Shown here: one piece after another, positions 6,018 through 59,457 of the stretch
Layout of the letters: each line of letters begins with the position of its first letter
How positions within the stretch are numbered: the stretch's first letter is position 1
DNA from: a virus
Length of the DNA: 64,000 nucleotides
Virus record (IMG/VR): IMGVR_UViG_3300026473_000477
Location: 1-64,000 of that record
Strand: one strand, 5' to 3'
Notes under the pieces: model-generated
The model's database searches: none
The model's input: the letters and a program-made list of their open reading frames with translations, nothing else
What the model was told of the DNA's origin: nothing
Position numbers and translations under genes: made by a program

Positions 6018-6318
6018 TTCCTACCTTCTGTTTTCTAATGGCAAACATTTTGCCCTCAATCCTTCTATCTGTCATTTTAAAGTCAATGACTTCTTCAATT
6101 AATTCCTCATTACATTCACTGGCTAGTTTGTTTAAGATAAAGTCTTTAAACTCACTTGTCATGTGTTTAGGGTTCATTATAAGTTGGCTAGATTCGACCT
6201 CTAGTAGCCACTTATCAAGCCACTGGTTAAGTAACTTTCTTCTAGTTTGGGAGTGGTTAAATTGGTTGTCATCTTTTTGGTCGATAACTTTAAATAGTTC
6301 CAAGATAAACTGCTCCAT
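5992..6318 (-). CDS. Uncharacterised protein, 108 aa
   Basis: Helical and charged with a tryptophan-rich centre (LLNQWLDKWLLEVES) and a basic tail. ATG overlaps the upstream stop as TAATG, with AGGT before it, so it is translationally coupled. Not recognised. Confidence 0.6.
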   Translation of the reverse strand: MEQFILELFKVIDQKDDNQFNHSQTRRKLLNQWLDKWLLEVESSQLIMNPKHMTSEFKDFILNKLASECNEELIEEVIDFKMTDRRIEGKMFAIRKQKVGNEKDKKKG

Positions 6319-6554
6319 TAGTAACCTATTGGGACTAATCCCAGCTTTTGTAATATTGGATGATTTAGTGCTTCCAAGTAACGTAACCCTTCGTCATAAT
6401 TAGGAAAATTCATGATAACTGGAGCAGTATTGTCATTTGAGTATATAAAGCGAAAATTAGTCTTTGACCCCAAACTAACTACTTTAACTATTTCCCAGTC
6501 TGGAAATACCTCAGGTGTCATTTTTTCCTCAGTTTCAGTACATTCAGGTGTCAT
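6318..6554 (-). CDS. Uncharacterised protein, up to 78 aa
   Basis: Not recognised; central KVVSLGSKTNFRFIYSNDN and VIMNFPNYDEGLRYLEALNH. Two starts are possible. The ATG at 6554 has only GAGAG in front. The ATG twelve codons in (6521) has a better GAGGAAAAA. Both begin MTPE, and the same 11-bp word ATGACACCTGA occurs a third time at 6613-6623 in the leader. Confidence 0.6.
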   Translation of the reverse strand: MTPECTETEEKMTPEVFPDWEIVKVVSLGSKTNFRFIYSNDNTAPVIMNFPNYDEGLRYLEALNHPILQKLGLVPIGY

Positions 6555-6622
6555 GTTCTCTCAATTCCTGCTACGTTTATTAATAGTTAGTTGTCAGGAC
6601 TAGTGGCAATAGTTCAGGTGTC

Positions 6623-47755: not shown

Positions 47756-48094
47756 TTACTTCCTTTTGTGTAATCTTTTGAGGATTTGATCTGTTATATA
47801 GCTGATAAAATAAGCCTCTGGTTCGTCATTATCATGATCAAGCATAATACCCCTTGACTTAAATACAGCATTTTTGAAATGGATAAGTTCATGAAAGAAA
47901 TCAGCTGTGTGCATTTCCCTTAGCCAAATTTGGAAATAATGTCTACCTTCTTTGTCTTCAGTTTGCCAAAATCTACCATAAGCATTAAGAGGAACTTCAC
48001 CAATAGCATATTTCTCAAGTTTTTTGACATCAGAGCCTAAATGGAAAATGACGTTAATATTGTAAATATCAGCGAAGAATTTAATTGTTTTCAT
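47756..48094 (-). CDS. HExxH metallopeptidase-like protein, 112 aa
   Basis: ADFFHELIHFKNAVFKSRG with a downstream acidic HDNDEPEAYFISYI is a minimal zinc-peptidase core of ImmA/SprT type. The start is the ATG at 48094, which lies inside the LWRLD tail of the preceding gene with GGAG 5 nt upstream; a longer in-frame start at 48115 would ignore that signal. Activity is unproven. Confidence 0.65.
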   Translation of the reverse strand: MKTIKFFADIYNINVIFHLGSDVKKLEKYAIGEVPLNAYGRFWQTEDKEGRHYFQIWLREMHTADFFHELIHFKNAVFKSRGIMLDHDNDEPEAYFISYITDQILKRLHKRK

Positions 48095-48308
48095 CAAGTC
48101 TCCAAAGTTTGACAAGTGTTGGGTGGATTTTAATTAAATCTAAAACTCTATAATAATTGCGATGATAACCAAATGAACACTCAATACAGTCGCCAAATCC
48201 AAAATCCACAATGTTATCCGAATATACCTTGAGTATAGGATAGTTACTCATACCTTTGTCTTGGAATAAATCAAGTAAAACAAAATCACCGACTTTAATA
48301 TCGTTCAT
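48081..48308 (-). CDS. LWRLD-tail small protein, 75 aa
   Basis: N-terminal INDIKVGDFVLL-type strand pattern (VGDFVLLDLF, PILKVYSDN) suggests a small SH3-like barrel, with the family's C-terminal HPTLVKLWRLD. Codons of the tail (TGG AGA CTT GAT GAA) hold GGAG and the ATG of 47756-48094. Function unknown; one of nine paralogues in this window. Confidence 0.75.
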   Translation of the reverse strand: MNDIKVGDFVLLDLFQDKGMSNYPILKVYSDNIVDFGFGDCIECSFGYHRNYYRVLDLIKIHPTLVKLWRLDENN

Positions 48309-48513
48309 CCAATCTCCAAAGCTTTACTAATATTGGATGTAATTTTCCAATAATACAATCCTCATAGAAGTCAAGACGTATCCAATATTTAGATCTAAAA
48401 GCATAATCATAACAAAGTAACCTACTATAATATAGGTCTACCTGTATAATCTTATCTATACGTATATCACTATTATTTTTATACATTATAAAATCACCAA
48501 CTTGTATATTCAT
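48295..48513 (-). CDS. LWRLD-tail small protein, 72 aa
   Basis: MNIQVGDFIMYKNN, RIDKIIQVD, then GKLHPILVKLWRLDERY. Most similar to 58585-58800 (YD...Y...L..YED...IGKxHPILV). Its tail encodes the ribosome site and ATG of 48081-48308 (14-bp overlap). Starts by ATGA in the nuclease gene. Confidence 0.78.
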   Translation of the reverse strand: MNIQVGDFIMYKNNSDIRIDKIIQVDLYYSRLLCYDYAFRSKYWIRLDFYEDCIIGKLHPILVKLWRLDERY

Positions 48514-49061
48514 TTAATTTGATATCCTTTCTCATTCATTCTATGTACTTCAAACTTAACTTTACCACTATCAACTAACCTTTTAATATTCCTCTGTTTT
48601 TCACTCAACTGGCTATCTCCAGTCTTTACTTCAATGAAAGTTATCTGATCTTCCCCAAAATGCACGTAATCTATCGGGTTAAATAATCCTCTAAGTCCTT
48701 TAGATTCATAAGGAAAATCTCTAAGTAAAGGAGCAACATTTTCAGCAACAAGTCCAACCCTGACTTGTTCTGACCTCTCTTTACTTATTTTTTCAGCTAA
48801 TTTACTTTCAACCTCAGAAAGTCTAGTGGCAAGTTCTCCACGTTGTCTGTCAGCCGTTTGGTAAAATTCGGTTAATGTATAGATCTGAGACTGGAACTGA
48901 GATACAGTAAACTTATAAGTAGCCTCTAATTCATCGAATTTCTGCTTATAATCAACTTTTTCACTAGTACCATTAGATTTATTAGCCTCTTTATTAAACA
49001 GCTTTTTAAGCCATTTTAACACTTGGATAATGTTCTGTAATTTAAACAAAAAGGCTAACAT
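48510..49061 (-). CDS. Membrane-anchored Holliday-resolvase-like endonuclease, 183 aa
   Basis: The C-terminus fits the endonuclease family related to archaeal Holliday junction resolvases: ENVAPLLRDFPYESKGLRGL, NPIDYVHFG, ITFIEVKTGDSQLSEKQRNI (catalytic ExK) and SGKVKFEVH. An N-terminal hydrophobic helix (MLAFLFKLQNIIQVLKWL) and a coiled coil (about 40-90) precede it, as is usual in this family. It may resolve branched DNA before packaging, or degrade host DNA. Confidence 0.8.
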   Translation of the reverse strand: MLAFLFKLQNIIQVLKWLKKLFNKEANKSNGTSEKVDYKQKFDELEATYKFTVSQFQSQIYTLTEFYQTADRQRGELATRLSEVESKLAEKISKERSEQVRVGLVAENVAPLLRDFPYESKGLRGLFNPIDYVHFGEDQITFIEVKTGDSQLSEKQRNIKRLVDSGKVKFEVHRMNEKGYQIK

Positions 49062-49069
49062 TTAATTTC

Positions 49070-49468
49070 CTATTCGTAAGGGATGATTAGTTCGTATCTA
49101 CTTTTACTAAAGAATCTAAGAGTAAGTCCATCTTCTCTGTCTACATTATTAGAATTGATAACGAAGAAATTATAAGAAAACTCAGAGGATATAGTTAACT
49201 CGAGAAGTTCGCCAGTAGTCTTATCCACATAAATACCATCAACAAAAGAATTCTCTCCAGAGCCTAAATCTAAACTAAAATCTCTACCAAGTAGAGTAAG
49301 GGTAACTGTAACTTGTCTATATAATGGATGTTTAAATACGCTTAAATTAAGCTTTTCATTATGCTTAATCTCTATAAGAAGGTTTGATAGTCCTTTCTCT
49401 ACTGTTTTTACCAGCTTGGTAATATTCTTCCGTAGTTCTTTTACTTTTAACTGTAGTTTCTGATACAT
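49070..49468 (-). CDS. Uncharacterised protein, 132 aa
   Basis: A charged N-terminal helix (KLQLKVKELRKNITKLVKTV) and a beta-rich remainder (YRQVTVTLTLLGRDFSLDLG; GLTLRFFSKSRYELIIPY). GGAGCAATTT precedes the ATG. Not recognised. Confidence 0.65.
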   Translation of the reverse strand: MYQKLQLKVKELRKNITKLVKTVEKGLSNLLIEIKHNEKLNLSVFKHPLYRQVTVTLTLLGRDFSLDLGSGENSFVDGIYVDKTTGELLELTISSEFSYNFFVINSNNVDREDGLTLRFFSKSRYELIIPYE

Positions 49469-49508
49469 AAATTGCTCCTATTAATGCTATAAATATTGGT
49501 AAAACCAT
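49365..49508 (-). CDS. Possible 47-aa membrane peptide overlapping the next gene out of frame
   Basis: MVLPIFIALIGAIYVSETTV, then KSKRTTEEYYQAGKNSRERT: one membrane helix and a basic tail. It begins one base after the stop of 49510-49692 and shares 104 bp with 49070-49468 in another frame. The neighbour's ribosome site lies within it. Its own ribosome site is weak. Confidence 0.4.
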   Translation of the reverse strand: MVLPIFIALIGAIYVSETTVKSKRTTEEYYQAGKNSRERTIKPSYRD

Positions 49509-49509
49509 A

Positions 49510-49692
49510 TTATAACTTTCTGGTTAAGTATTTGTAAACAGCCATTCCAATAAAGAATAAGGCTAAGTAATGGTTAGCATAGGCTAGAGAAGCTCCAAGT
49601 AAGTAAGTTACCAGAGCTAGTGGTAAGAATATCAACTCTGGGAAGAATAGACTTAAAATTGCCAGTATAGAATAGATAATAACAGATTTCAT
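49510..49692 (-). CDS. Membrane protein, 60 aa
   Basis: Two to three membrane helices (VIIYSILAILSLFFPELIFL; ALVTYLLGASLAYANHYLAL) and a short basic tail. The ATG at 49692 follows GAGGTGT; an earlier GTG is less likely. Overlaps the previous gene by ATGA. Could be a holin by size; no other support. Confidence 0.6.
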   Translation of the reverse strand: MKSVIIYSILAILSLFFPELIFLPLALVTYLLGASLAYANHYLALFFIGMAVYKYLTRKL

Positions 49693-49835
49693 ATACACCT
49701 CATTATTCTATATACTACACCATCAATCTTGATTTGTCCAGTCTTTTTTATGGAATCTATTGAAACAAATTTAGTAGATATCAAAATAGTCATAGCTATA
49801 AACATTGCCAGTAGTCCAAATATGAAATCTTTCAT
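49689..49835 (-). CDS. Small membrane protein, 48 aa
   Basis: MKDFIFGLLAMFIAMTILIS gives one N-terminal span; the rest (IKKTGQIKIDGVVYRIMRCI) is a small beta hairpin outside. AAAGGTGAAGA precedes the ATG and ATGA overlaps tie it to both neighbours. Confidence 0.6.
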   Translation of the reverse strand: MKDFIFGLLAMFIAMTILISTKFVSIDSIKKTGQIKIDGVVYRIMRCI

Positions 49836-50131
49836 TCTTCACCTTTTAGTGTAATTTGACCTAGATAGGTTGTTTTTCTATTATTTTCTTTGTCGAATTG
49901 TTTCATGGCTTTGATTACTTCTTTGTGAGTCATTCCATTTTCGTAAAAGCAAGAAACGCTCGTCCATTTATGGTCGCACATATAGGGACTATCTGAATAA
50001 ACACATTCACCATCAGGATAAATTACTCTTATACGATATGACCATCTGGTACAAAAATGATGATCCTTGTCTTCACTTCTATCAATACTCGCCCAGAATG
50101 TAGGGTTATTGTAATTAATCTTTTTTGTCAT
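49832..50131 (-). CDS. Uncharacterised protein, 99 aa
   Basis: Cys/His-containing and beta-rich (HFCTRWSYRIRVIYPDGECV; MCDHKWTSVSCFYENG), then a helix. Possible metal site but no clear pattern. AGGAACTTT lies before the ATG, overlapping the gene before. Confidence 0.6.
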   Translation of the reverse strand: MTKKINYNNPTFWASIDRSEDKDHHFCTRWSYRIRVIYPDGECVYSDSPYMCDHKWTSVSCFYENGMTHKEVIKAMKQFDKENNRKTTYLGQITLKGEE

Positions 50132-50327
50132 AAAGTTCCTTAGAAGATTCGTACCAAAAAGCTGTATATCTTAATCCTGAATGATGATACGGACGCACCT
50201 GATAAACTTGATTGCTCACGTATCTTTCAAGCCATACCCACTGATCTTTTATTAAAACAGGAACTAAAGCAAACTTAACTATAGATCTTTTTTCATTCAA
50301 CCTAGGTGTGTTGTTTTTCCATTTCAT
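50115..50327 (-). CDS. Uncharacterised protein, 70 aa
   Basis: Starts at the ATG 50327, which has GAGGAAAAA in front; a longer frame into the upstream gene lacks a ribosome site. Beta-rich (RSIVKFALVPVLIKDQWVWL; YQVRPYHHSGLRYTAFWY). Not recognised. Led by the promoter at 50359-50387. Confidence 0.65.
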   Translation of the reverse strand: MKWKNNTPRLNEKRSIVKFALVPVLIKDQWVWLERYVSNQVYQVRPYHHSGLRYTAFWYESSKELYDKKD

Positions 50328-50358
50328 TTTTTCCTCACAGTCATACCAAACACAATAA

Positions 50359-50387
50359 AGAATACAATAATGTAAATCATTTGTCAA
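50359..50387 (-). promoter_or_regulatory. sigma70-type promoter
   Basis: TTGACA (50382-50387), 17-bp spacer, TATTCT (50359-50364), minus strand. The -35 box is formed by the last codons of 50377-50898. Confidence 0.65.
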
Positions 50388-50898
50388 CCTTTTTCTTAAA
50401 TCCCCTATCATCGGCATATTCTTTGTTTTCTCTGTCATGATACATTAAAAACATAATATTAGTTGCGCAATGAGCTAAATGTGAACATCCAGTTTCTTTG
50501 TCGATATCTTCTCCAGATTGGAAAGCGAGTAAATGTCGCATTAAGCTTTCGTAAGGTGTTGAAAACTTTGTAGGTTTTTGCCAGTTATAATGTTCATATT
50601 TAACCCTAGACTTGGTTAATACTTCTCCCAAAGCTAAAATGAAATTTGGATCAATCTCTCTTGTCTGGATTTTTCCAGCATTGTATCTTTTAGACTCGCC
50701 ATCATTTTGAGTTGTTTGTGGCTCTTTTACTACAAGATTAATTGACTCAGACTCTTCAAACTCATCAACTGGAGCAGTTAAATTAAACGCACCATTATCT
50801 CCAGATTGTAAATAAACCTTACATGATTTATCATCAATTGTTATAACTCTTCCTAGCTTTCTTGATAATTTATGGATTACAATATCGCCAACTTTCAC
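50377..50898 (-). CDS. DUF5664 (MazZ-like) nucleotide pyrophosphohydrolase with SH3-like N-domain, 173 aa
   Basis: The C-terminal domain has the DUF5664 signature: KRYNAGKIQTREIDPNFILA, SRVKYEHYNWQKP, YESLMRHLLAFQSGEDIDKE, SHLAHCATNIMFLMY. This MazG-like helical family includes MazZ, a dATP/dGTP diphosphohydrolase of phages with 2-aminoadenine DNA. The N-terminal 50 residues (VKVGDIVIHKLSRKLGRVIT) resemble the barrel of the LWRLD-tail proteins. The GTG at 50898 follows GGGAGG; a longer frame is less likely. An extended -10 (TGGTATAAT) lies just upstream. Confidence 0.8.
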   Translation of the reverse strand: MKVGDIVIHKLSRKLGRVITIDDKSCKVYLQSGDNGAFNLTAPVDEFEESESINLVVKEPQTTQNDGESKRYNAGKIQTREIDPNFILALGEVLTKSRVKYEHYNWQKPTKFSTPYESLMRHLLAFQSGEDIDKETGCSHLAHCATNIMFLMYHDRENKEYADDRGFKKKVDK

Positions 50899-50939
50899 GA
50901 AACCTCCCAATGATGGTAACAAGAGAATTATACCACAGA

Positions 50940-51356
50940 TTAGTAAAATCTTCCATTCTTATTTTCATGTTCTTCTGAAACATAGAAGTCACTTTTAAGC
51001 TGAACCATAAAAACTTGAAGAATAACACATTCCAAATGTTTATGATCTGGAGTGTGATCCCAATGCTCCAAGTGTGCTAACTCATGAGCTAAAGTCGATA
51101 ATAAATCAATAGTGGAGTATTTTTTAATCTTTTTAGGATTATTCCTATCTCTATAAGAAGTATATAGACAAATTCTTTCTGGCTTATTATCATAATAGAC
51201 AATAGAACCTTGAAAATGCTGACCAAAGTTAGGATTAGCTTTCTTAGATGTTATCTTATTAATATTCTTAACTTTTGGAACTAAATGAGCAATGGAAGAA
51301 ACATAATCCCTCATCCACTCCAAGTCCTTTGTAAACTGTATTTTCTTTTTTGGCAT
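50940..51356 (-). CDS. SprT/WLM-like zinc metallopeptidase, 138 aa
   Basis: LAHELAHLEHWDHTPDHKHL holds HExxH with a later histidine, typical of SprT/WLM-type peptidases that handle DNA-protein crosslinks. The N-terminus is basic. GAGGAATT precedes the ATG. Proteolytic activity is inferred. Confidence 0.75.
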   Translation of the reverse strand: MPKKKIQFTKDLEWMRDYVSSIAHLVPKVKNINKITSKKANPNFGQHFQGSIVYYDNKPERICLYTSYRDRNNPKKIKKYSTIDLLSTLAHELAHLEHWDHTPDHKHLECVILQVFMVQLKSDFYVSEEHENKNGRFY

Positions 51357-51362
51357 AATTCC

Positions 51363-51617
51363 TCAGTTAAGCTTATCTTTATCCAAATAATCCTCAGTTT
51401 CCCATTCTCTAACAGAAATGAAGTCATCTTCTGATATATCATATCCAGTGAGAGAAAGTTCCAGTAATTCTTCTTTGGAAACATTACGCTGAATCTCTGG
51501 CGCACCAAAGCCTAAATCCATAATCTTTTCTAAGATCACTTTAGCTTTCTCATGGTTAGGACTAATGTCAGATTCCAACACTTCCCAAATTTCTCTAATT
51601 GCTTCAGACTTTTTCAT
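51363..51617 (-). CDS. Uncharacterised acidic protein, 84 aa
   Basis: Helical and acidic (MKKSEAIREIWEVLESDISP; SKEELLELSLTGYDISEDDF). AAAGGCTACTA precedes the ATG. Not recognised; co-transcribed with the exonuclease before it. Confidence 0.62.
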   Translation of the reverse strand: MKKSEAIREIWEVLESDISPNHEKAKVILEKIMDLGFGAPEIQRNVSKEELLELSLTGYDISEDDFISVREWETEDYLDKDKLN

Positions 51618-51630
51618 TAGTAGCCTTTTA

Positions 51631-52440
51631 TTATTTGCTAATAGCTTTATTATACGCTTTAACTGCCAATGCTACTGTATTTGACTTATCGTATTTAGCC
51701 AACTTTAAGAACAATTCTTCCAAGCTTAAAACATCATATTTGTTATACTTTTCCATTGATTTCCAAGCTTTCATATTACCTTTAAGACATTCATCCCAAA
51801 GTTTAAAACCAGAGAAGTCAGAATGTTCTTGCTTCTTATATTTAGTGCAAAGCTTTTTAGTCATGTACTCTAACTTATTGGAAGTAAATCCAAAATGTTT
51901 CTTAGCAATTCTCAAGGTGTCAATGTTTTTGTAATGTGTTGGAGCATCTAATCCATGCTCAATAAGTCTGGCATTGATTTTTTTCATGTCAAATGATATG
52001 CCGTTTTGCGTAATAACAATATCAGCTTTATCCAATAGTTTTTTAATCTTTACCAATAGTGGCTTATCATTATGTAATGACTTTCCTTTCTTATTCCTTT
52101 GGTCGGCATAGATTACTTCAGATTCACTACTTCCAAGCCATTTAGCTGAAAATGATAGAATAAACCAATCTTTAATTAGCATATTAAGTGGGATGTTTTG
52201 GTCAAACAATCCCCATACAAAACCAACCAAAGGGGATGTTTCGATATCTAAAATCAATACGTTAGGAGTATATTCTTCAGAATCAGAACAATAAGCTTGA
52301 ATACAATGTTTGATTGAATCAGGAGTTCTATGTAAGTTAAACTTTTGCCTAAACATTTTGCTAATCTCTGTTCGAGAATAACCTTGGCTATTCAACTTCC
52401 TTACATAATTTATCTGTTTTTTATCCCAAGTAATTTTCAT
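51631..52440 (-). CDS. YprB-like RNase H-fold 3'-5' exonuclease, 269 aa
   Basis: A small helix-turn-helix N-terminus (NYVRKLNSQGYSRTEISKMF) precedes a DEDDy exonuclease: LILDIETSPLVG (about 65-76), TQNGISFDMKKINARL, and YNKYDVLSLEELF with the Y-x-x-x-D of motif III. The fold is that of RNase_H_2/YprB nucleases. It may trim DNA or RNA during replication or recycling. The ATG at 52440 has GGAG 6 nt before. Confidence 0.82.
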   Translation of the reverse strand: MKITWDKKQINYVRKLNSQGYSRTEISKMFRQKFNLHRTPDSIKHCIQAYCSDSEEYTPNVLILDIETSPLVGFVWGLFDQNIPLNMLIKDWFILSFSAKWLGSSESEVIYADQRNKKGKSLHNDKPLLVKIKKLLDKADIVITQNGISFDMKKINARLIEHGLDAPTHYKNIDTLRIAKKHFGFTSNKLEYMTKKLCTKYKKQEHSDFSGFKLWDECLKGNMKAWKSMEKYNKYDVLSLEELFLKLAKYDKSNTVALAVKAYNKAISK

Positions 52441-52460
52441 TAAAATCTCCAATAGTTATT

Positions 52461-52489
52461 ATTATATAACTCATATTTTATTTAGTCAA
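52461..52489 (-). promoter_or_regulatory. sigma70-type promoter of the exonuclease
   Basis: TTGACT (52484-52489), 17-bp spacer, TATAAT (52461-52466), minus strand; the -35 box overlaps the end of 52478-52759. Confidence 0.75.
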
Positions 52490-52759
52490 GAAGAATTTAT
52501 AAAGTTTCTGCATATTTGGACTTAGTAGCTCTAAATCTTCTTCAGCCACAACTTCCCACTCATCAAAAGTCTTATTAAAGTTACAGATTAAGTATGCGAT
52601 ATTTTTAGGATTATAAACAATTATATCAATAATTCGGTAATTAACTCCACGAAATTTAACAATATCTCCAATATTATACATTGGACCAGGATGGATAAAA
52701 AATGATAACTTAAATAACGCTTTGGAAGTAAATCTGAGGATTGATTTAATAATTGACAT
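52478..52759 (-). CDS. Membrane-anchored relative of the LWRLD-tail family, 93 aa
   Basis: An N-terminal hydrophobic/basic helix (SIIKSILRFTSKALFKLSFF) precedes the family barrel (MYNIGDIVKFRGVNYRIIDI) and an end, LLSPNMQKLYKFF, that aligns with HPILVKLWRL but has lost the LWRLD codons. No gene starts within its end; a promoter is there instead. Starts in a TAATG overlap. Confidence 0.65.
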   Translation of the reverse strand: MSIIKSILRFTSKALFKLSFFIHPGPMYNIGDIVKFRGVNYRIIDIIVYNPKNIAYLICNFNKTFDEWEVVAEEDLELLSPNMQKLYKFFLTK

Positions 52760-52860
52760 TAATTACTCTTTATTAAAATGACAGTAACAATAATCTGTAC
52801 TATTGAAATTACACATTGGATAATTTGCCAGAAGACTCGCTTCTTTTCATAATCAGTCAT
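52759..52860 (-). CDS. Single-span membrane peptide, 33 aa
   Basis: ATG at 52860 lies inside the LWRLD tail of the gene before (GGAGACTTGATGA), and the stop overlaps the next ATG. Product MTDYEKKRVFWQIIQCVISI, then VQIIVTVILIKSN: one membrane helix. Too short for most gene callers, but the embedded signals are strong. Confidence 0.7.
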   Translation of the reverse strand: MTDYEKKRVFWQIIQCVISIVQIIVTVILIKSN

Positions 52861-53086
52861 CAAGTCTCCAAAGTTTGACAAGCGTTGGATGTAATATAGT
52901 GTATGAGCTGTTGTTACCTGTTAGTATATCTAAAGATAAATATTCAGAACCTCTTATCCATTCGCTACCTCTAATATGTTTGCAACTAAAATAAAAATAA
53001 TTAGAAGTAAGTTTCGTAATCCTATAAAATACTAAAATATCATTAACACCATTATAAAAGAATATATCACCAACTTTAGGCTTCAT
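52853..53086 (-). CDS. LWRLD-tail small protein, 77 aa
   Basis: MKPKVGDIFFYNGVNDILVF, RITKL, then TILHPTLVKLWRLDD. Barrel-type N-terminus and conserved tail; the tail holds the start of the 33-residue membrane peptide. Itself starts in the tail of 53076-53282. Confidence 0.78.
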   Translation of the reverse strand: MKPKVGDIFFYNGVNDILVFYRITKLTSNYFYFSCKHIRGSEWIRGSEYLSLDILTGNNSSYTILHPTLVKLWRLDD

Positions 53087-53282
53087 CCAACCTCCAAAGT
53101 TTGACCAATATCGGATGGATTTTGGTATATTGACTAGGTAGAGGAATAAAAATTGCTCCCATATTCTGGTAATTATTTATTATTCTATATGTAGCTAAAT
53201 TACCAGAAATATCTACAATTTTTTCTATCTTAATAATATCTCCATTCTGGTAAATATAATACTCTCCAACTTCAGGTATCAT
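53076..53282 (-). CDS. LWRLD-tail small protein, 68 aa
   Basis: MIPEVGEYYIYQNGDIIKIE, then TKIHPILVKLWRLDEA. Closest to 59230-59457 (VGEYYxxxN...IEKI). Follows the endolysin gene by an ATGA overlap and carries the start of 52853-53086 (11-bp overlap). Confidence 0.78.
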   Translation of the reverse strand: MIPEVGEYYIYQNGDIIKIEKIVDISGNLATYRIINNYQNMGAIFIPLPSQYTKIHPILVKLWRLDEA

Positions 53283-53692
53283 GGTAGAAAAAACCTTTTG
53301 CCAGATTTAGGAGCTACAATTTGGCAATGTGTCCAAGTTTCTGTAGCAGAAAAGTCCTCAAACCATAAGCCAATTTCTTCCATTAGTTTAACATTAGCTT
53401 TTATCCAATCATGCAAGTCTTTTACAGGCTTTCCAATTGGGACGATATCGCAAGCTTCACATGACAAATGCTTGCTTTTCATGGGAATTTTCGACTTGTC
53501 TGTTATACCTTTGTCGGCATAAATCTGCAAGTGATGATTCATTGTACGAACACCAGATGTAACTTTTAAAGGCTTACCATAAGCATTTCTGAGCTTATTA
53601 ATGCGTTCCAATAGAATCTCTAAATTGGCAAGCTGTTCTGGAGTTAAGTCAGATTCTAAATTTCCTGACAATAATTCTTGTTTAGTAATCAT
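53279..53692 (-). CDS. Peptidase M15-type endolysin, 137 aa
   Basis: Cuts peptidoglycan cross-bridges or stem peptides for host lysis. LKVTSGVRTMNHH, the zinc motif SKHLSCEACDIVP and WTHCQ supply the H-x(6)-D...H ligands of M15 (DD-carboxypeptidase/L-Ala-D-Glu peptidase) enzymes. No signal peptide, so it needs a holin. Usual length for a phage single-domain lysin. Confidence 0.85.
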   Translation of the reverse strand: MITKQELLSGNLESDLTPEQLANLEILLERINKLRNAYGKPLKVTSGVRTMNHHLQIYADKGITDKSKIPMKSKHLSCEACDIVPIGKPVKDLHDWIKANVKLMEEIGLWFEDFSATETWTHCQIVAPKSGKRFFLP

Positions 53693-53693
53693 A

Positions 53694-53930
53694 TTATTTC
53701 CTTCTCATATAAGAAAAATCAAAAGCATTCTTTACTTTATCTATTATTGGTGAATTTTTCGACAACGATACGTAACCATATTCAGCTTGAAAAGCTGCTA
53801 TTGCTAGTTGATTAAAAAACATATTTGGATGATTTTGCTCCAAATGCTTAGTATATTTACTTGGTAAAATCACCACTCTCAAGTTGAATATTTTAAAGAA
53901 TCTATAAATAAAGGAGTAGATATGTAACAT
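53694..53930 (-). CDS. Uncharacterised protein, 78 aa
   Basis: A hydrophobic N-terminus (MLHIYSFIYRFFKIFNLRVV) then LPSKYTKHLEQNHPNMFFNQ. Domain not recognised. ATG at 53930 follows GGAGAGCTTG in a TGATG overlap. Confidence 0.6.
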   Translation of the reverse strand: MLHIYSFIYRFFKIFNLRVVILPSKYTKHLEQNHPNMFFNQLAIAAFQAEYGYVSLSKNSPIIDKVKNAFDFSYMRRK

Positions 53931-54049
53931 CAAGCTCTCCTTATAGCCAATGCTGAAAGCAACAAAATGCTACCAATAGTTGGAAATCCTGACAACCCAA
54001 TAACTGCTCCTAGTCCTAATAATAACAGCTTAATTTCCAGTTTATTCAT
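53930..54049 (-). CDS. Small membrane protein, 39 aa
   Basis: MNKLEIKLLLLGLGAVIGLS, GFPTIGSILLLSALAIRRA: two short hydrophobic segments around a GFP turn. ATGA overlap with the gene before. It lies two genes upstream of the endolysin, so a holin role is conceivable. Confidence 0.55.
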   Translation of the reverse strand: MNKLEIKLLLLGLGAVIGLSGFPTIGSILLLSALAIRRA

Positions 54050-54243
54050 TTTAATTTTCCGTTCCTAAGTTCTTCTATAGAGCAAAAAATACTCTCTAAT
54101 TCCGATGAAATAGTACCTTTGTTCTTGGATAGATCTAATAATAACAAATCTGCTATAATACGTGTAGAAGTATCAGTACGAGTTTGTAAAATTTTTATAC
54201 AACCTTCTACTATCTTTTCTTGTTTTATTTTATCTTTTTTCAT
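54046..54243 (-). CDS. Small helical protein, 65 aa
   Basis: Basic N-terminus and helices (VEGCIKILQTRTDTSTRIIA; LESIFCSIEELRNGKLK). The ATG at 54243 is preceded by GGGAG; a TTG three codons earlier is weaker. Not recognised. Confidence 0.6.
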   Translation of the reverse strand: MKKDKIKQEKIVEGCIKILQTRTDTSTRIIADLLLLDLSKNKGTISSELESIFCSIEELRNGKLK

Positions 54244-54523
54244 TAATTTCAATCTCCCTTATTCTATAGTATGTAATTAATTTATCCAATCTCTCTTCTT
54301 CATATACACTTAGTCCTTTAACTTTACAATTTGGATAAATACTAGCATCATATCTTGTGTAAACCATTTCTCCTAATTCTCCACATTTAGCAGCAAATGA
54401 TAATTTACTATAAGCAGAATATGTAAACATAGATAGTAATATAATAAGTATAGAAAGAATTATGTTTATAAAAAAGTGATCACAACTATCACAACTATTA
54501 AATTTATTAGTATTTTCACTCAT
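54230..54523 (-). CDS. Membrane protein, 97 aa
   Basis: A short CDSCD-containing N-terminus, one membrane helix (IILSILIILLSMFTYSAY), then a soluble tail with two cysteines (AAKCGELGEMVY; YPNCKVKG) and a helix. A spanin-like topology is possible but the tail is short. GAGGATGAGTGAAAATA region overlaps the gene before. Confidence 0.6.
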   Translation of the reverse strand: MSENTNKFNSCDSCDHFFINIILSILIILLSMFTYSAYSKLSFAAKCGELGEMVYTRYDASIYPNCKVKGLSVYEEERLDKLITYYRIREIEINEKR

Positions 54524-54692
54524 CCTCTTCTCCTTGTACTACAATATCACCATTAATAATATATCCACTGGCTAATAAAAAGCATTTAAAGTCTTCCAAT
54601 ATTTCAGGCAAGGTTAGGTTATGAGTAGTAAACTCAACTTCTGTCTGATCGTATTGATTGGATGGGTCCATGATTTTGGTAAATTTAAGCAT
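54516..54692 (-). CDS. Conserved small phage protein, 58 aa
   Basis: MLKFTKIMDPSNQYDQTEVE, then LTLPEILEDFKCFLLASGY. Several phages carry a short protein of this pattern (from memory); its function is unknown. Starts inside the stop region of 54685-55152. Confidence 0.62.
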   Translation of the reverse strand: MLKFTKIMDPSNQYDQTEVEFTTHNLTLPEILEDFKCFLLASGYIINGDIVVQGEEDE

Positions 54693-55152
54693 TCTTTTTC
54701 CTTAGTATCGCTAATTCTTTTCTCATTTCCTCTAATTTTAATTTTATCTCTTCCTTGGTAGGTTCTTTACAAAACAAATCCTTCATTACATTATAAAACT
54801 CACCCTTTGTATAACTTAAGTATTTGGTTTTCTTATCCATATCTTCTGTGATGATATAAGTTCTTACATAAGTAAAAACTCTCGTAGCACTAAGCATTGT
54901 ACGGTATTTTTTATATGGGACTATTCCAGCTTTCATTTTAGCCCATGGTTTTAACCAAACAGCAAGTTCAATTCTTTCTAGTAAATTATAGCCATGATCT
55001 TTTGCTCTTTGATTTATACTTCTCCAATCAGTTAAAATATCTTCACTGGTAAATTGACCAAAACCGCAGATCTCAATAATCTCCTTACCATCCTCATCTG
55101 GAAATGTTTCAAATATGTACCAGCAAGAATTTGACCACCTACACAAAGACAT
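54685..55152 (-). CDS. Uncharacterised protein, 155 aa
   Basis: Aromatic-rich N-terminus (MSLCRWSNSCWYIFETFPDE), a central helical domain (LLERIELAVWLKPWAKMK) and a C-terminal coiled coil (EEIKLKLEEMRKELAILRKK). TAATG overlap with the gene before; GGAAAAGGTAGAG is its ribosome region. Confidence 0.62.
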   Translation of the reverse strand: MSLCRWSNSCWYIFETFPDEDGKEIIEICGFGQFTSEDILTDWRSINQRAKDHGYNLLERIELAVWLKPWAKMKAGIVPYKKYRTMLSATRVFTYVRTYIITEDMDKKTKYLSYTKGEFYNVMKDLFCKEPTKEEIKLKLEEMRKELAILRKKNA

Positions 55153-55307
55153 TACTCTACCTTTTCCTTAAAGCAAATATACTTATCAAACTTATAAATA
55201 TCAACATGCTCTTTTCCAATTTTATCACAATTTTTCTTATCTGTAAAGTGATAAGCGTATTCTATTGGAGCAGAGTCAATATATAAGTAAAGTACCCAGT
55301 ATATCAC
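55152..55307 (-). CDS. Small protein, 51 aa
   Basis: GTG start in a GTGA overlap, with AGGA before it: MIYWVLYLYIDSAPIEYAYH, then FTDKKNCDKIGKEHVDIYKF. Compact alpha/beta; not recognised. TAATG overlap downstream. Confidence 0.55.
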   Translation of the reverse strand: MIYWVLYLYIDSAPIEYAYHFTDKKNCDKIGKEHVDIYKFDKYICFKEKVE

Positions 55308-55456
55308 TCAAAATCCTGCATATTTCTAATCATTGCATCAATTGTGCTGATCTGAGCTTGGAAAGATAACCGCTGATCTCCAGTCAGATTATCACAGCTT
55401 ACGTAAAATAAGCAGTTTAGTTCATGTCTAAGGTTACGTAATTGTGTTAGCGTCAT
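55304..55456 (-). CDS. Small helical protein, 50 aa
   Basis: ATG at 55456 right behind the nrdA stop, with GAGGGA in front. MTLTQLRNLRHELNCLFYVS, DQRLSFQAQISTIDAMIRN: two helices. Not recognised. Confidence 0.58.
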   Translation of the reverse strand: MTLTQLRNLRHELNCLFYVSCDNLTGDQRLSFQAQISTIDAMIRNMQDFE

Positions 55457-55457
55457 T

Positions 55458-57167
55458 TTATCCCTCACAACTTGCACATTGGTCTTTAGTAAAATCGCTT
55501 ACTGTACCTTTCAATACAGTCTCGCTTCTCAGATAGTATAACCCTTTTAATCCTTTTTGCCAAGCCTCTAAATGAACTTCATTAATATATTTTGCAGAAC
55601 TTCCAGATGTAAAGAATAAATTAACACTTTGGCTCTGGTCAATAAACTTCTGTCTTTGGGAAGCTTGGTTAATAATAGCGAACTGGTTGATTTCTCTAGC
55701 AGTCTTAAAGATTTCTTTCTCTTCATCAGAAAGGAAGTTTAATGACTGAACCGAACCTTGAGCTTTAATAATGCTATCCCAGACTTCAGGAGTATTCTTT
55801 CCTTTGACTGCTAACAATACTTCCAAGTTTTTATTCTTTCTAATAAACACACCCTTAGCCCCTTTTAAAGCATAAGCATTGGAAGTTAAAGGCTCAATAG
55901 AAGCCGAATCTCCTCCACAGATAGAAGCATTGCTTACAGTTGGAGCTAACGCCATTGTATGAGTATTTCTCATTCCAAATCCTTTACACCACTCAGGCTC
56001 TCCAAATTCCTTAGCCATGTTTCTACTGGCTTTGTGCGACTCTTCTTTAATGAAAGAGAAGATCTTAGCATTTAACATCATCGACTGGAAAGAGTCAAAA
56101 GGAAGCATTTTTGATTGAAGTAAACTATGCCACCCCATAACTCCAAGTCCAAGCATTCGAGATTTTTTAGCAAATCTAATTGCAGCCTCGTAACCTTCAA
56201 TTCCGTCAGCTTTATCAATGAACTCTTGCAACACACCATCAAGAAACCAAGTGGCAAGTTCTGGCAAAGTCATACCATTGGAGAAGACGTAATTTGACCA
56301 CTCGTCCCATTTAGCAAGAGCTAAGGATGACAAGCAACAAACAAATGTATGATCTTTGTCAGTGTAAGCTACAATCTCATTACAAATATTACTAGTCTTT
56401 ACCAATAGGTTGTGAAATTTATAGCATTCTGGATTCTGATTATTTACGTTATCAGTAAATAAAAGGTAAGGCTCGCCTAACTCTACTCTGGCTTGGAGAA
56501 TCTTTTTCCAACGCTCTCTTGCCACTGGATCACCTCCAATGATAGATTGCATATCATTATCAGTCAGAGTAACAGCATTGTGTACGTTATGAACTCGTCT
56601 ATTAATATCTCCAGTAGCTTTTCTGATATCAATAAATTCATCAATGTCGCCATGAGAAAACGGTAAATAGAGAGCTGAAGCTCCTCGTCTAGTTGAACCT
56701 TGACTTACTGCCAGTGTTGTAGCATCAATACATTTAGCCCATGGAACAATTCCCTCAGACTTACCATTACCAGAGATTTTAGCTCCTCTAGCTCTGATAT
56801 CTCCAATGTAAACTCCAACTCCTCCTCCACCTTTTGAAAGCATGGCAAGTTCGTGTTGCTTTTTGAAAATACCAGAAATTGAATCTTCCAAGTGATTAGA
56901 AAAGCAAGAGATTGGAAATCCTCGACTAGTTCCCATATTTGATAATACTGGAGATGCTCCACCAAGCCAGCCTTTCCAAAACATCTCAAAGAATAGAGGT
57001 GCTAACTCAGGCTTTTTAAGTCTATTGGCAGAGGAAGTGGAAACTCTAGTCCACATGTCTCTCGGAGATTCTCCATCTTGGAAATAACCATTACTTAGTA
57101 TAGAGTAACTTTCTTGATTCATCCATTCAGGTGCTAAGTCTTTTTCTTTCAGTTCATCTAATGTCAT
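55458..57167 (-). CDS. nrdA: Class Ia ribonucleotide reductase large subunit, 569 aa
   Basis: Reduces ribonucleotides to deoxyribonucleotides together with NrdB. Seen: substrate-site cysteine (GFPISCFSNHLEDSI), glycine loop LSKGGGGVGVYIGD, active site NICNE (Asn-x-Cys-x-Glu), second redox cysteine (FVCCLSSL), C-terminal tyrosine pair in LKGLYYLRSETVLKG, and the CASC tail that passes electrons. The N-terminal ATP-cone of E. coli NrdA (761 aa) is absent, so dATP feedback control is probably missing. ATG at 57167 with GGGAG in front; an upstream GTG is less likely. Confidence 0.95.
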   Translation of the reverse strand: MTLDELKEKDLAPEWMNQESYSILSNGYFQDGESPRDMWTRVSTSSANRLKKPELAPLFFEMFWKGWLGGASPVLSNMGTSRGFPISCFSNHLEDSISGIFKKQHELAMLSKGGGGVGVYIGDIRARGAKISGNGKSEGIVPWAKCIDATTLAVSQGSTRRGASALYLPFSHGDIDEFIDIRKATGDINRRVHNVHNAVTLTDNDMQSIIGGDPVARERWKKILQARVELGEPYLLFTDNVNNQNPECYKFHNLLVKTSNICNEIVAYTDKDHTFVCCLSSLALAKWDEWSNYVFSNGMTLPELATWFLDGVLQEFIDKADGIEGYEAAIRFAKKSRMLGLGVMGWHSLLQSKMLPFDSFQSMMLNAKIFSFIKEESHKASRNMAKEFGEPEWCKGFGMRNTHTMALAPTVSNASICGGDSASIEPLTSNAYALKGAKGVFIRKNKNLEVLLAVKGKNTPEVWDSIIKAQGSVQSLNFLSDEEKEIFKTAREINQFAIINQASQRQKFIDQSQSVNLFFTSGSSAKYINEVHLEAWQKGLKGLYYLRSETVLKGTVSDFTKDQCASCEG

Positions 57168-57169
57168 TG

Positions 57170-58132
57170 TTACTCCCACAATTTATCCCAATTGATATTA
57201 CCTTTTGAATATGATACCTCTCTACCAGCAAAGAAGTCCTGTTGAGTCGATCCCTCAGTCATAACAGTAAACCATTGTAAACCTTCCAATGCCTCTTTGT
57301 CAAGGTTTTTCCAGTTGGACTTTAATCCAAGCTCCTGAAGCTTTAAATTGGCTCTATTGCGAATAAACGTCTTCATTTGATGTAACGTCAATCCTTCGAC
57401 ATCTCCATCTTTAAAGGCATTTTCCAAGAAAGCATCTTCCAGTTCAATTGTTAGTCTAGCAGCTTCGTAAATGTCTTTTTTAAAATCATCAGTAAATATT
57501 TCAGGATTCTCCTTAATAATTACCCTAAAAAGCTCACATCCAGCTTTTGAATGTAAATCTTCATCCAAGCAAGACCAAGCAATAATTTGTCCCATTCCTT
57601 TCATTTTGTTAAATCTGCTGAAATTTAAAAGTACAGCAAAGCTTGAAAATAAAGCAACACCTTCATTAAAAGCTGAGAAGATTGCAATAGCTTTAGCTGT
57701 TTCTGCCACAGTCTTAGCTTTGACGTTCATTAGCCTATCAATCTTGGATTTTACTGTTGGCTCATGTAGAAATGCTTGATAGTCGTCTAGTCCCAAGGAT
57801 TGATCCAAGTAGCTATAACCATTGGCGTGAATTGCTTCAAATGATGCGAAAGTCGCAAACATCATTTGTAATTCAGGCTTTTTAACTTGCTTCAAAAGTC
57901 TTCCAGACCAGAAATCATTTCCAATGAATACTTCAGTTTGAGTGAAGCCTTTTAGAATGGAGCCAATTAAATGTTTTTCTTTTTCTGACAAATTTAATTT
58001 CCAGTCATTGATATCCGATGCCATCGAGACTTCTGTATGTATCCAGTGGGCTTGATTAGCCTTCATCCAATATTCATGGAATTGAGGATATTCAAACGGC
58101 ATAAACGCTGCTCTAGGTTTAAAGATTGACAC
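57170..58132 (-). CDS. nrdB: Class Ia ribonucleotide reductase small subunit, 320 aa
   Basis: Houses the di-iron site and tyrosyl radical. FEAIHANGYSYLD gives the E-x-x-H plus the radical tyrosine seven residues after the glutamate; WSCLDEDLHSKAG and NEGVALFSS supply further ligands. GTG start directly behind AGGAGG. Transcribed with nrdA from the promoter at 58163-58191, 2 bp ahead of nrdA. Confidence 0.95.
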   Translation of the reverse strand: MSIFKPRAAFMPFEYPQFHEYWMKANQAHWIHTEVSMASDINDWKLNLSEKEKHLIGSILKGFTQTEVFIGNDFWSGRLLKQVKKPELQMMFATFASFEAIHANGYSYLDQSLGLDDYQAFLHEPTVKSKIDRLMNVKAKTVAETAKAIAIFSAFNEGVALFSSFAVLLNFSRFNKMKGMGQIIAWSCLDEDLHSKAGCELFRVIIKENPEIFTDDFKKDIYEAARLTIELEDAFLENAFKDGDVEGLTLHQMKTFIRNRANLKLQELGLKSNWKNLDKEALEGLQWFTVMTEGSTQQDFFAGREVSYSKGNINWDKLWE

Positions 58133-58162
58133 ATTCCTCCTTTTATGTTTTTGGGATAAACT

Positions 58163-58191
58163 ATTATACCATTATTTAAATAATTGTGCAA
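58163..58191 (-). promoter_or_regulatory. sigma70-type promoter of nrdBA
   Basis: TTGCAC (58186-58191), 17-bp spacer, TATAAT (58163-58168), minus strand. The -35 box and part of the spacer are the last codons of the paralogue 58172-58384. Confidence 0.78.
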
Positions 58192-58384
58192 GAATATTAG
58201 GACATTTTATTAAAGATTTCTTTGGATAAATTACAAACCGATCTTCTCTTTCAATGTAAATTTCCAACATTTCTGTACTTGGAAATTCAAAGAATGTAAA
58301 AGATATATTAATAACTTGACCAACTTTATAACAGTCTTTATGGAAAATAAAAACATAATCTCCAATAGTTATATTACTCGACAT
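58172..58384 (-). CDS. LWRLD-family member with lost tail, 70 aa
   Basis: MSSNITIGDYVFIFHKDCYK, VGQVINISF shows the family barrel, but it ends LIKCPNILAQLFK where relatives have HPILVKLWRLD. No gene begins in its end; the nrd promoter lies there. It starts in the LWKLD tail of 58374-58598. Confidence 0.68.
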   Translation of the reverse strand: MSSNITIGDYVFIFHKDCYKVGQVINISFTFFEFPSTEMLEIYIEREDRFVIYPKKSLIKCPNILAQLFK

Positions 58385-58598
58385 CTAATTTCCATAGCTT
58401 AATTAATATTGGATGAAGTGGAACAAAGCCTTTTATGTAATTATAAAATTCTTCAATTCCCAAAGATGACGGATAAAAATCCTGACTATTGACAAACTTA
58501 AAGTAATGATTTATACTATAATTATTAATATTTCTTACAATAATAATCTCACCATCTCTGGGATCAATGAAAACATCACCTTTCTTAATATTTATCAT
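58374..58598 (-). CDS. LWRLD-tail small protein, 74 aa (LWKLD variant)
   Basis: MINIKKGDVFIDPRDGEIII, VRNIN, then PLHPILIKLWKLDVE. The tail (TGG AAA TTA GAT GTC) contains GGA and the ATG of 58172-58384. Unknown function. Confidence 0.75.
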   Translation of the reverse strand: MINIKKGDVFIDPRDGEIIIVRNINNYSINHYFKFVNSQDFYPSSLGIEEFYNYIKGFVPLHPILIKLWKLDVE

Positions 58599-58800
58599 CC
58601 AATCTCCAGAGATTTACTAATATCGGATGGACTTTTCCAATAAACATGTCGTCATAGTAATCAATAGGCAAATTAATATACTGTTTATATTTTTGATCGT
58701 AGCACAAAATCGTATCGCTGTCTATCGAAACAATATTATCTATACGCACTTCATCAAATAATTCATATAATACAACATCACCAGCTTTTAAATCTATCAC
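58585..58800 (-). CDS. LWRLD-tail small protein, 71 aa
   Basis: MIDLKAGDVVLYELFDEVRI, DNIVSID, then GKVHPILVNLWRLDDKY. Pairs best with 48295-48513. Tail encodes GGAG and the ATG of 58374-58598 (14-bp overlap). Confidence 0.78.
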   Translation of the reverse strand: MIDLKAGDVVLYELFDEVRIDNIVSIDSDTILCYDQKYKQYINLPIDYYDDMFIGKVHPILVNLWRLDDKY

Positions 58801-59237
58801 AAATCCACCCCAAAACCTACAGCAATGCGTTTATCTGAAGTTCCCATTACCTGTAACTTAACAGCTCCATAAATTGGAACTAAAGCATTTAAGCCGTATT
58901 CTGTCTTTCCTGATAGATTAGCCGAATCTTTGATAGCCAGCATTCCAAGAGTAATTCCAGAGCCTTTGGTAATCTTATCAGACTTTACCACTAGTGTTCG
59001 ATCTTTATCCTCTCTGGTATTTGTATTTTCATCAATAGTTACAGTAACTTCTTTTGTTCCATCTGGCTTAGTAATTTCCTTTCTTACTTCTCTTTTCTTT
59101 TTGTCCTCAACCTTTACAACTTTTTCAATTTCTACTGTTTTGATCTTTTCTATAACTTGCGGCTTTTGTTGGAGAAGAAATCTGCCAATTAAAAGACCGA
59201 TAACAAGGCTTACTGAAACGTACTTTAAATTATTCAT
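58797..59237 (-). CDS. Membrane-anchored periplasmic protein, 146 aa (inner-spanin candidate)
   Basis: One N-terminal membrane helix (LKYVSVSLVIGLLIGRFLLQ), then a charged heptad-like segment (VIEKIKTVEIEKVVKVEDKK) and a beta-rich C-terminus ending AVGFGVDL, which looks outer-membrane-like. An N-in anchor with a periplasmic extension fits an i-spanin; the beta end does not. It starts in the LWRLD tail of 59230-59457. Confidence 0.55.
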   Translation of the reverse strand: MNNLKYVSVSLVIGLLIGRFLLQQKPQVIEKIKTVEIEKVVKVEDKKKREVRKEITKPDGTKEVTVTIDENTNTREDKDRTLVVKSDKITKGSGITLGMLAIKDSANLSGKTEYGLNALVPIYGAVKLQVMGTSDKRIAVGFGVDL

Positions 59238-59457
59238 CTAATCTCCATAGTTTGACCAGTATTGAGTGAATTTTAACATAATTACTTGACAAAGGAAAGT
59301 GACCCAGTCCGATGTGATCAATACCATTTATATAGCTTGCTTTGTATTTAAATTTATCATTAGAATATAATTCTAATATCTTTTCTATTTGAAGAACTTG
59401 CCCATTTATAGGATTAATAAAAAAGTAATATTCTCCAACTTTTGGATCATCTCTCAT
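59230..59457 (-). CDS. LWRLD-tail small protein, 75 aa
   Basis: PKVGEYYFFINPINGQVLQI, EKILELY, then VKIHSILVKLWRLDE. The tail (CTATGGAGATTAGATGAATA) contains GGAG and the ATG of 58797-59237. This shows the tail also serves unrelated downstream genes. Confidence 0.78.
   Translation of the reverse strand: MRDDPKVGEYYFFINPINGQVLQIEKILELYSNDKFKYKASYINGIDHIGLGHFPLSSNYVKIHSILVKLWRLDE

Follow-up and report, generated by a model that had tools for sequence, protein, structure and literature searches.

A family of small genes with a common tail

The stretch analysed here (64,000 nucleotides (nt); called the window) is part of the 79.6-kb IMG/VR virus record IMGVR_UViG_3300026473_000477, referred to in full as G000. 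It carries nine small paralogous genes, seven of which end in a common peptide, the tail, whose codons also hold the Shine-Dalgarno sequence and start codon of the next gene. An earlier note had reported the nine paralogues, their seven LWRLD tails, overlaps of 8-14 nt and the genes downstream, and all of this was reproduced: 9/9 open reading frames (ORFs) were found at the positions reported, all on the minus strand. Seven of them end in (H)P/S-x-L-(V/I)-(K/N)-L-W-(R/K)-L-D, and the ends of the genes at 52478 and 58172 are divergent. In all seven tails, the next ATG lies inside the codons TGG-(AGA/AGG/AAA)-xTx-GAT-G, with overlaps of 8, 8, 11, 11, 14, 14 and 14 nt, and all seven show the overlapping or nearly touching stop and start of coupled gene pairs. 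The genes 3' of the tails encode paralogues, an HExxH protein, a membrane peptide of 33 amino acids (aa) and a 146-aa membrane-anchored protein. The 16-nt motif that spans the last tail codons and the next ATG, CTNTGGARRYTNGATG, has seven copies in the window as compared to 0.01 expected, and 0 of 100 shuffles reached seven.

Two tailed small barrels lie at 48295..48513 (72 aa, KLHPILVKLWRLDERY) and 48081..48308 (75 aa, KIHPTLVKLWRLDENN). The motif of the former (48306..48321, with Shine-Dalgarno GGAGA) gives a 14-nt overlap with the next start; within the tail of the latter (motif at 48092..48107), the next ORF (47756-48094, 112 aa, HExxH) begins. Two more are found at 53076..53282 (68 aa, KIHPILVKLWRLDEA), where an AGG codon makes the strongest Shine-Dalgarno (GGAGG, motif at 53084..53099), and at 52853..53086 (77 aa, ILHPTLVKLWRLDD; motif at 52858..52873), which is followed by the 33-aa membrane peptide (52759-52860). 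The gene at 52478..52759 encodes an N-terminal membrane segment, a barrel and a divergent tail (SPNMQKLYKFFLTK), and occupies the slot upstream of the exonuclease gene, the same slot as tailed genes in four relatives introduced below (G002 60701, G003 28271, G004 24089 and L069 17302). The other tailed barrels are located at 59230..59457 (75 aa, KIHSILVKLWRLDE; motif at 59235..59250; 8-nt overlap with the next gene, 58797-59237), 58585..58800 (71 aa, GTG start, KVHPILVNLWRLDDKY; motif at 58596..58611), which was used for structure modelling, and 58374..58598 (74 aa, LHPILIKLWKLDVE). The last of these reads L-W-K-L-D (motif at 58382..58397), and its AAA codon yields a weak Shine-Dalgarno, GGAAA (-3.3 kcal/mol versus about -6.4 kcal/mol in typical copies). 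The member at 58172..58384 has a decayed tail, CPNILAQLFK, and the following ribonucleotide reductase beta gene uses its own intergenic Shine-Dalgarno. Elsewhere in the window, at 6318-6560, an open frame of 80 residues whose body is different has an end, ...LNHPILQKLGLVPIGY, that resembles the G000 tail.

Further copies in the whole record

The whole of G000 contains 16 tailed copies, and several of those outside the window keep the helical part of the tail with a changed end (WQLD, YGLD, YGWD, WRLE or WRLT). Four copies without an overlapping start end in WQLDKL or YGLDKL (TGG CAA CTT GAC or TAT GGA CTT GAC), and in these cases an intergenic Shine-Dalgarno precedes the next gene. The copy at 65877 (YGWDKEI) has AAGGAG in place of the usual Shine-Dalgarno. 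At 71663 and 71468, LWR is kept but with a CGA codon; the next start lies elsewhere and is served by a new Shine-Dalgarno, which is GGG (a V to G change) just 5' of TTATGG at 71663 and AAGGAT at 71468. The 71468 copy (L010:7468-7869), which adjoins two tailed paralogues, is apparently the remainder of a frameshifted, decaying barrel gene.

Relatives carry tails in their own wording

Direct searches with the window family (phages, an IMG/VR peptide pattern and degenerate DNA) returned no credible relative, and a genome-contig scan with a polymerase query gave no match. Since the family queries failed, relatives were collected via DNA polymerase B, a DnaB-like helicase and the exonuclease, and tails were detected by unbiased clustering of C-terminal 18-mers. 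Several phages yielded one large tail cluster each, whereas others yielded none; in total there are 186 tailed ORFs on 11 contigs, 148 of which overlap a following ORF. The observation thus extends beyond the window and is larger than first noted.

Each phage words its tail in its own way, here called a dialect: HPILVKLWRLD in G000; ATEMDKALEGL in G001; TPLMEALL or TDLEKALL in G002 and L082; SSLEKELL in G003, G004, L079, L087 and L088; SSLEKALL or SSLEKGLF in L069; and S-x-L-I-x-EL, on about 50 genes, in the 82-kb genome G011. With strict patterns, the matrix of dialects against genomes is diagonal: G000 has 16 tails of the HPxLxKLW type, G002 has 33 of the A-type, and G003 and G004 have 13 and 6, respectively, of the E-type. 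In four other phages, none of the 569 genes matched. Different phages often have a tailed gene immediately upstream of the same core gene, namely primase (5 of the genomes compared), helicase (5), exonuclease (5, including G000 with its divergent tail) and polymerase (3), and the tails at these orthologous slots are each in their own genome's wording. Residue -3 goes with the genome, being A/S in G002, E in G003/G004 and A/G/V in L069; residues -5/-4 are partly shared by slot across phages, and the copy number per slot varies between phages. L069, a relative with a near-identical helicase, differs at the polymerase slot, where it has an exonuclease/DNA polymerase-like gene that is apparently unrelated (L069:12497-14782).

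The tail contains a selected ribosome-binding site

In every dialect, polar codons of the helix spell a Shine-Dalgarno that usually serves an overlapping next start, the five dialects besides that of G000 encoding it in different residues. In overlapping tails, the predicted binding to the anti-Shine-Dalgarno is -5.8 kcal/mol as compared to -3.4 kcal/mol for synonymous recodings (n=64, Fisher 5.6e-6), whereas non-overlapping tails show no such signal (-1.8 versus -2.2 kcal/mol for recodings, n=19). The K/E codon at -4, the Shine-Dalgarno codon, ends in G in 32/34 overlapping tails versus 5/13 others (Fisher 1.4e-4). The G011 tails accept almost any residue before E (K, E, R, Q, A, W, T or M), but the codon for it ends in G: 24/26 K/E/Q codons do so in overlapping tails against 1/5 in others (background 0.35, p=1.4e-9). 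Codon choice at this position is therefore, as judged from sequence comparison, selected where the next start overlaps. The Shine-Dalgarno in the 3' end of the upstream gene exceeds codon chance, although in G000 alone it is inseparable from codon bias.

Overlapping gene pairs with termination-reinitiation at ATGA or TGATG and an intragenic Shine-Dalgarno have been described (PMC6728339). Ordinary pairs in the present phages are alike in their stop/start overlap and in having the Shine-Dalgarno in the 3' end of the upstream gene; the tailed genes differ in that it lies within an amino-acid-conserved motif repeated on dozens of genes. Among 62 ordinary overlapping pairs from five genomes, none with a tail, the Shine-Dalgarno was equally strong (-5.7 versus -3.5 kcal/mol). 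As tail-less pairs do equally well, the coupling signal appears to be real but ordinary in these phages.

The tail is conserved as amino acids

Ordinary -4 overlaps show a single excess, K/E/R/G at residue -4 (0.58 versus 0.24). The T/S at -8 (79%), Leu at -6 (88%) and Leu at -2 (88%) are confined to tailed genes, and ordinary overlapping pairs of the same genomes lack the T/S-x-L-x-x-x-L motif. Overlap alone was therefore rejected as the cause of the tail, because it brings just the polar residue. Leu(-6) is present in 38/38 tails of G002, spelled by five codons with a codon identity of 0.27 against a null of 0.25. The codon variety at T/S, at P/D/E, at Leu(-2) and in the HPxLVKL part of the G000 tail likewise equals the codon-usage null. 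A mobile DNA repeat or gene-conversion cassette was also rejected, since codon identity matches this null at nearly all positions in G000, G002 and G003. Synonymous variation, which the earlier note had proposed to check, is thus saturated outside the Shine-Dalgarno codon and constrained at it.

That note had also named homologues that keep the tail without an overlapping start as evidence against its coupling idea. They exist: about a fifth of the tailed ORFs keep the motif without such a start, and tails survive the loss of the Shine-Dalgarno, as WQLD/YGLD in G000 and as EKALE/EKALS with AAA in G002. This argues against coupling as the reason for the protein half of the tail, not against the Shine-Dalgarno half.

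After removal of the tails, the carriers fall into 47 clusters for 50 proteins in G011, 29 for 37 in G002 and 12 for 12 in G003. As body clusters are nearly as many as carriers, the tail seems to outlast any similarity of the bodies; the same peptide sits on dissimilar bodies, as expected of a portable docking tag, and the tail is portable as had been supposed. An orthologous pair of non-barrel carriers, G002 10277 and G003 79337, is 54% identical, and their tails, LRKALD and LGKQLF, follow the dialect of their own genome. Since the motif is kept without the signal, synonymous sites are free and bodies are dissimilar, these comparisons indicate conservation of the tail at the protein level, the ribosome-binding site being carried along by the helix.

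Structure of the barrel

The model of the protein encoded at 58588-58800 of the window shows an SH3-like barrel followed by a C-terminal helix (residues 59-69) that covers HPILVNLWRLD. Its predicted local distance difference test score (pLDDT) is 89.6 overall and about 80 in the tail, and its predicted template modelling score is 0.73. Its best matches in the PDB are to PWWP, Tudor, KOW and designed SH3 barrels, but no match reaches E<=0.001. A second model, of the G002 type, is of modest quality (pLDDT 73.6).

The nine genes had been thought to belong to no described family. The window members indeed have no Pfam match above the curated cut-off and no convincing PHROG match, their PHROG matches being at chance level; the fold itself is common in phages, as many small phage proteins in BFVD resemble the modelled barrel. 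A G001 member matches PHROG 4927, 4317 and 22041 at 8e-6 to 3e-5. These small SH3-like/KOW-like phage barrels are alike in predicted fold, but the present proteins differ from them in their common C-terminal helix and in numbering 16-38 or more copies per genome.

A probable docking tag with an embedded ribosome-binding site

The unusual feature is a phage-specific end tag common to dozens of small dissimilar proteins. In the reading that we favour, with somewhat better than even confidence, the tail has two layers: a protein helix, acting as a docking tag for a common partner, and a ribosome-binding site embedded in it. The comparisons indicate a first layer consisting of a short C-terminal helix, [S/T/H]-x-hydrophobic-hydrophobic-x-x-Leu-hydrophobic, which is conserved as amino acids in dozens of small proteins per phage. 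The bodies that carry it appear to be SH3/KOW-like barrels in G000 and mostly have no detectable mutual similarity in the relatives. The second layer, likewise indicated by comparison, is formed by polar positions of the helix that spell a Shine-Dalgarno at the right distance from the next start, because the genes are packed head to tail. As dissimilar bodies share the helix, whose wording is uniform within a genome but differs between genomes, we infer that it would dock onto one common, genome-specific partner, or onto other tailed proteins. The small bodies may then be interchangeable clients or adaptors, and the embedded ribosome-binding site would permit genes to be gained, lost or swapped before other genes without silencing them. 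The tail is probably a previously undescribed docking tag.

The C-terminal tail of SSB is a portable docking motif of this kind. The likeness lies in a short end motif common to dissimilar proteins and conserved as peptide; the present tails differ in that their wording changes between related phages and that a Shine-Dalgarno is embedded. Three small proteins of G005 (L054-L058) have SSB-like acidic tips (FTYDDIPF, NFYDGLPF and FTSDDIPF). No account of such a tailed small-protein swarm was found in the part of the literature covered.

Several points weigh against a docking tag. The helix could pack on its own barrel; the shared descent of the G000 barrels explains part of the tail identity there; the dialect residue at -3, E or A, could partly mirror how the Shine-Dalgarno is spelled (GGAG versus AAGG/GAGG); the docking partner is represented by a phyletic candidate alone (see below); and the synonymous-recoding test confined to G000 is uninformative, as that genome prefers AGA for Arg in any case. 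The first two of these touch on a helix with a purely structural role, in which each tail caps its own body, likeness within a genome stems from recent duplication and there is no common partner. The model places the helix directly after the barrel, and the G000 carriers, which form 2 body clusters among 16 once the tails are removed, are all mutual nearest relatives and represent one expansion. However, dissimilar bodies share tails, the orthologous G002/G003 pair and the orthologous slots follow genome-specific dialects, and we consider this explanation rather unlikely.

The earlier note had itself proposed a portable translation-coupling cassette, kept for its Shine-Dalgarno and overlapping start with the barrel as passenger or regulator. 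The part that stands is the ribosome-binding site: its codons are selected (K/E ending in G, as above), it is spelled in all five other dialects and about 148/186 tailed ORFs overlap the next. Coupling as the reason why the tail is kept does not stand, as ordinary pairs manage equally well without one, synonymous sites are saturated at the motif positions outside the Shine-Dalgarno and tails remain after its loss; as a full explanation the cassette is improbable. A signal for degradation, or one that acts through the nascent chain when translation terminates, would fit a short, portable peptide at or near the C-terminus, but 1-12 residues may follow the motif (KLWQLDKLFENE, ELFPTIGIVK), so that the free C-terminus is not constant, and for many copies there is no downstream coupling that they could serve. 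We regard such a signal as most improbable.

Small genes without an assigned function abound in phage genomes, and up to a third of the small genes of one phage carry a common tag. Such a tag would offer a handle, as finding its binder would give many uncharacterised proteins a shared role at once. The system also provides a clean case in which a single DNA stretch has to satisfy two constraints that can be told apart, one from a protein helix and one from the ribosome-binding site of the next gene, with natural controls in the same genomes.

A candidate partner and other end tags

The phyletic profile of G002 singles out a MoxR-like AAA+ ATPase and a DUF2201 VWA/metallopeptidase that are shared with G000, G003 and G011 and absent from the eight tail-free relatives first compared. 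A DUF2201 profile search found the protein in these four genomes and also in G008, but not in G005-G007 or G012-G014; the bpMoxR profile was too specific for a fair test of MoxR presence. The pair occurs in all four near-full-length genomes with the C-terminal tag and in G008, and six near-full-length relatives that have no swarm lack it. In G000, the MoxR-like ATPase and the DUF2201 VWA/HExxH protein lie at 73999-76673 (L010:9999-12673), where the tailed genes 73760, 75252 and 76705 interleave with them.

G008 (IMGVR_UViG_3300013005_000002, L127-L129) has no C-tail swarm. At least 22 of its small ORFs (47-70 aa) have M(K/R)KY(K/N)x as a common tag at the N-terminus, and some of these ORFs adjoin a MoxR/DUF2201 pair. 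Four partly read N4-like isolates also have the pair: Escherichia phage Pollock (KM236242, L132) has an N-terminal tag swarm of its own, seven small ORFs starting with MN(K/Q)(E/Q)(L/F)xxI(L/I); Presley has at most a trio, and none was seen in nACB1 and SBP1. The proposal that the pair is confined to C-tail swarms is weakened by G008 and the N4-like phages, which have it without such a swarm. MoxR/DUF2201 is a weakly supported candidate from genome comparison, and stays a lead because the genomes are few and related. In a further proposal, which we consider quite unlikely, up to about 50 fast-diverging small proteins per phage would dock by one end tag specific to the genome (here the C-terminal helix, in G008 a tag of the MKKYxN type at the N-terminus) onto a MoxR AAA+/DUF2201 VWA-metallopeptidase machine as interchangeable adaptors, for example for remodelling or destroying host or defence proteins.

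Short tandem repeats were also seen at contig ends (G002 22-183 and 84413-84739, L010:15400-15612), coding for IKLA, IANL or MVML.

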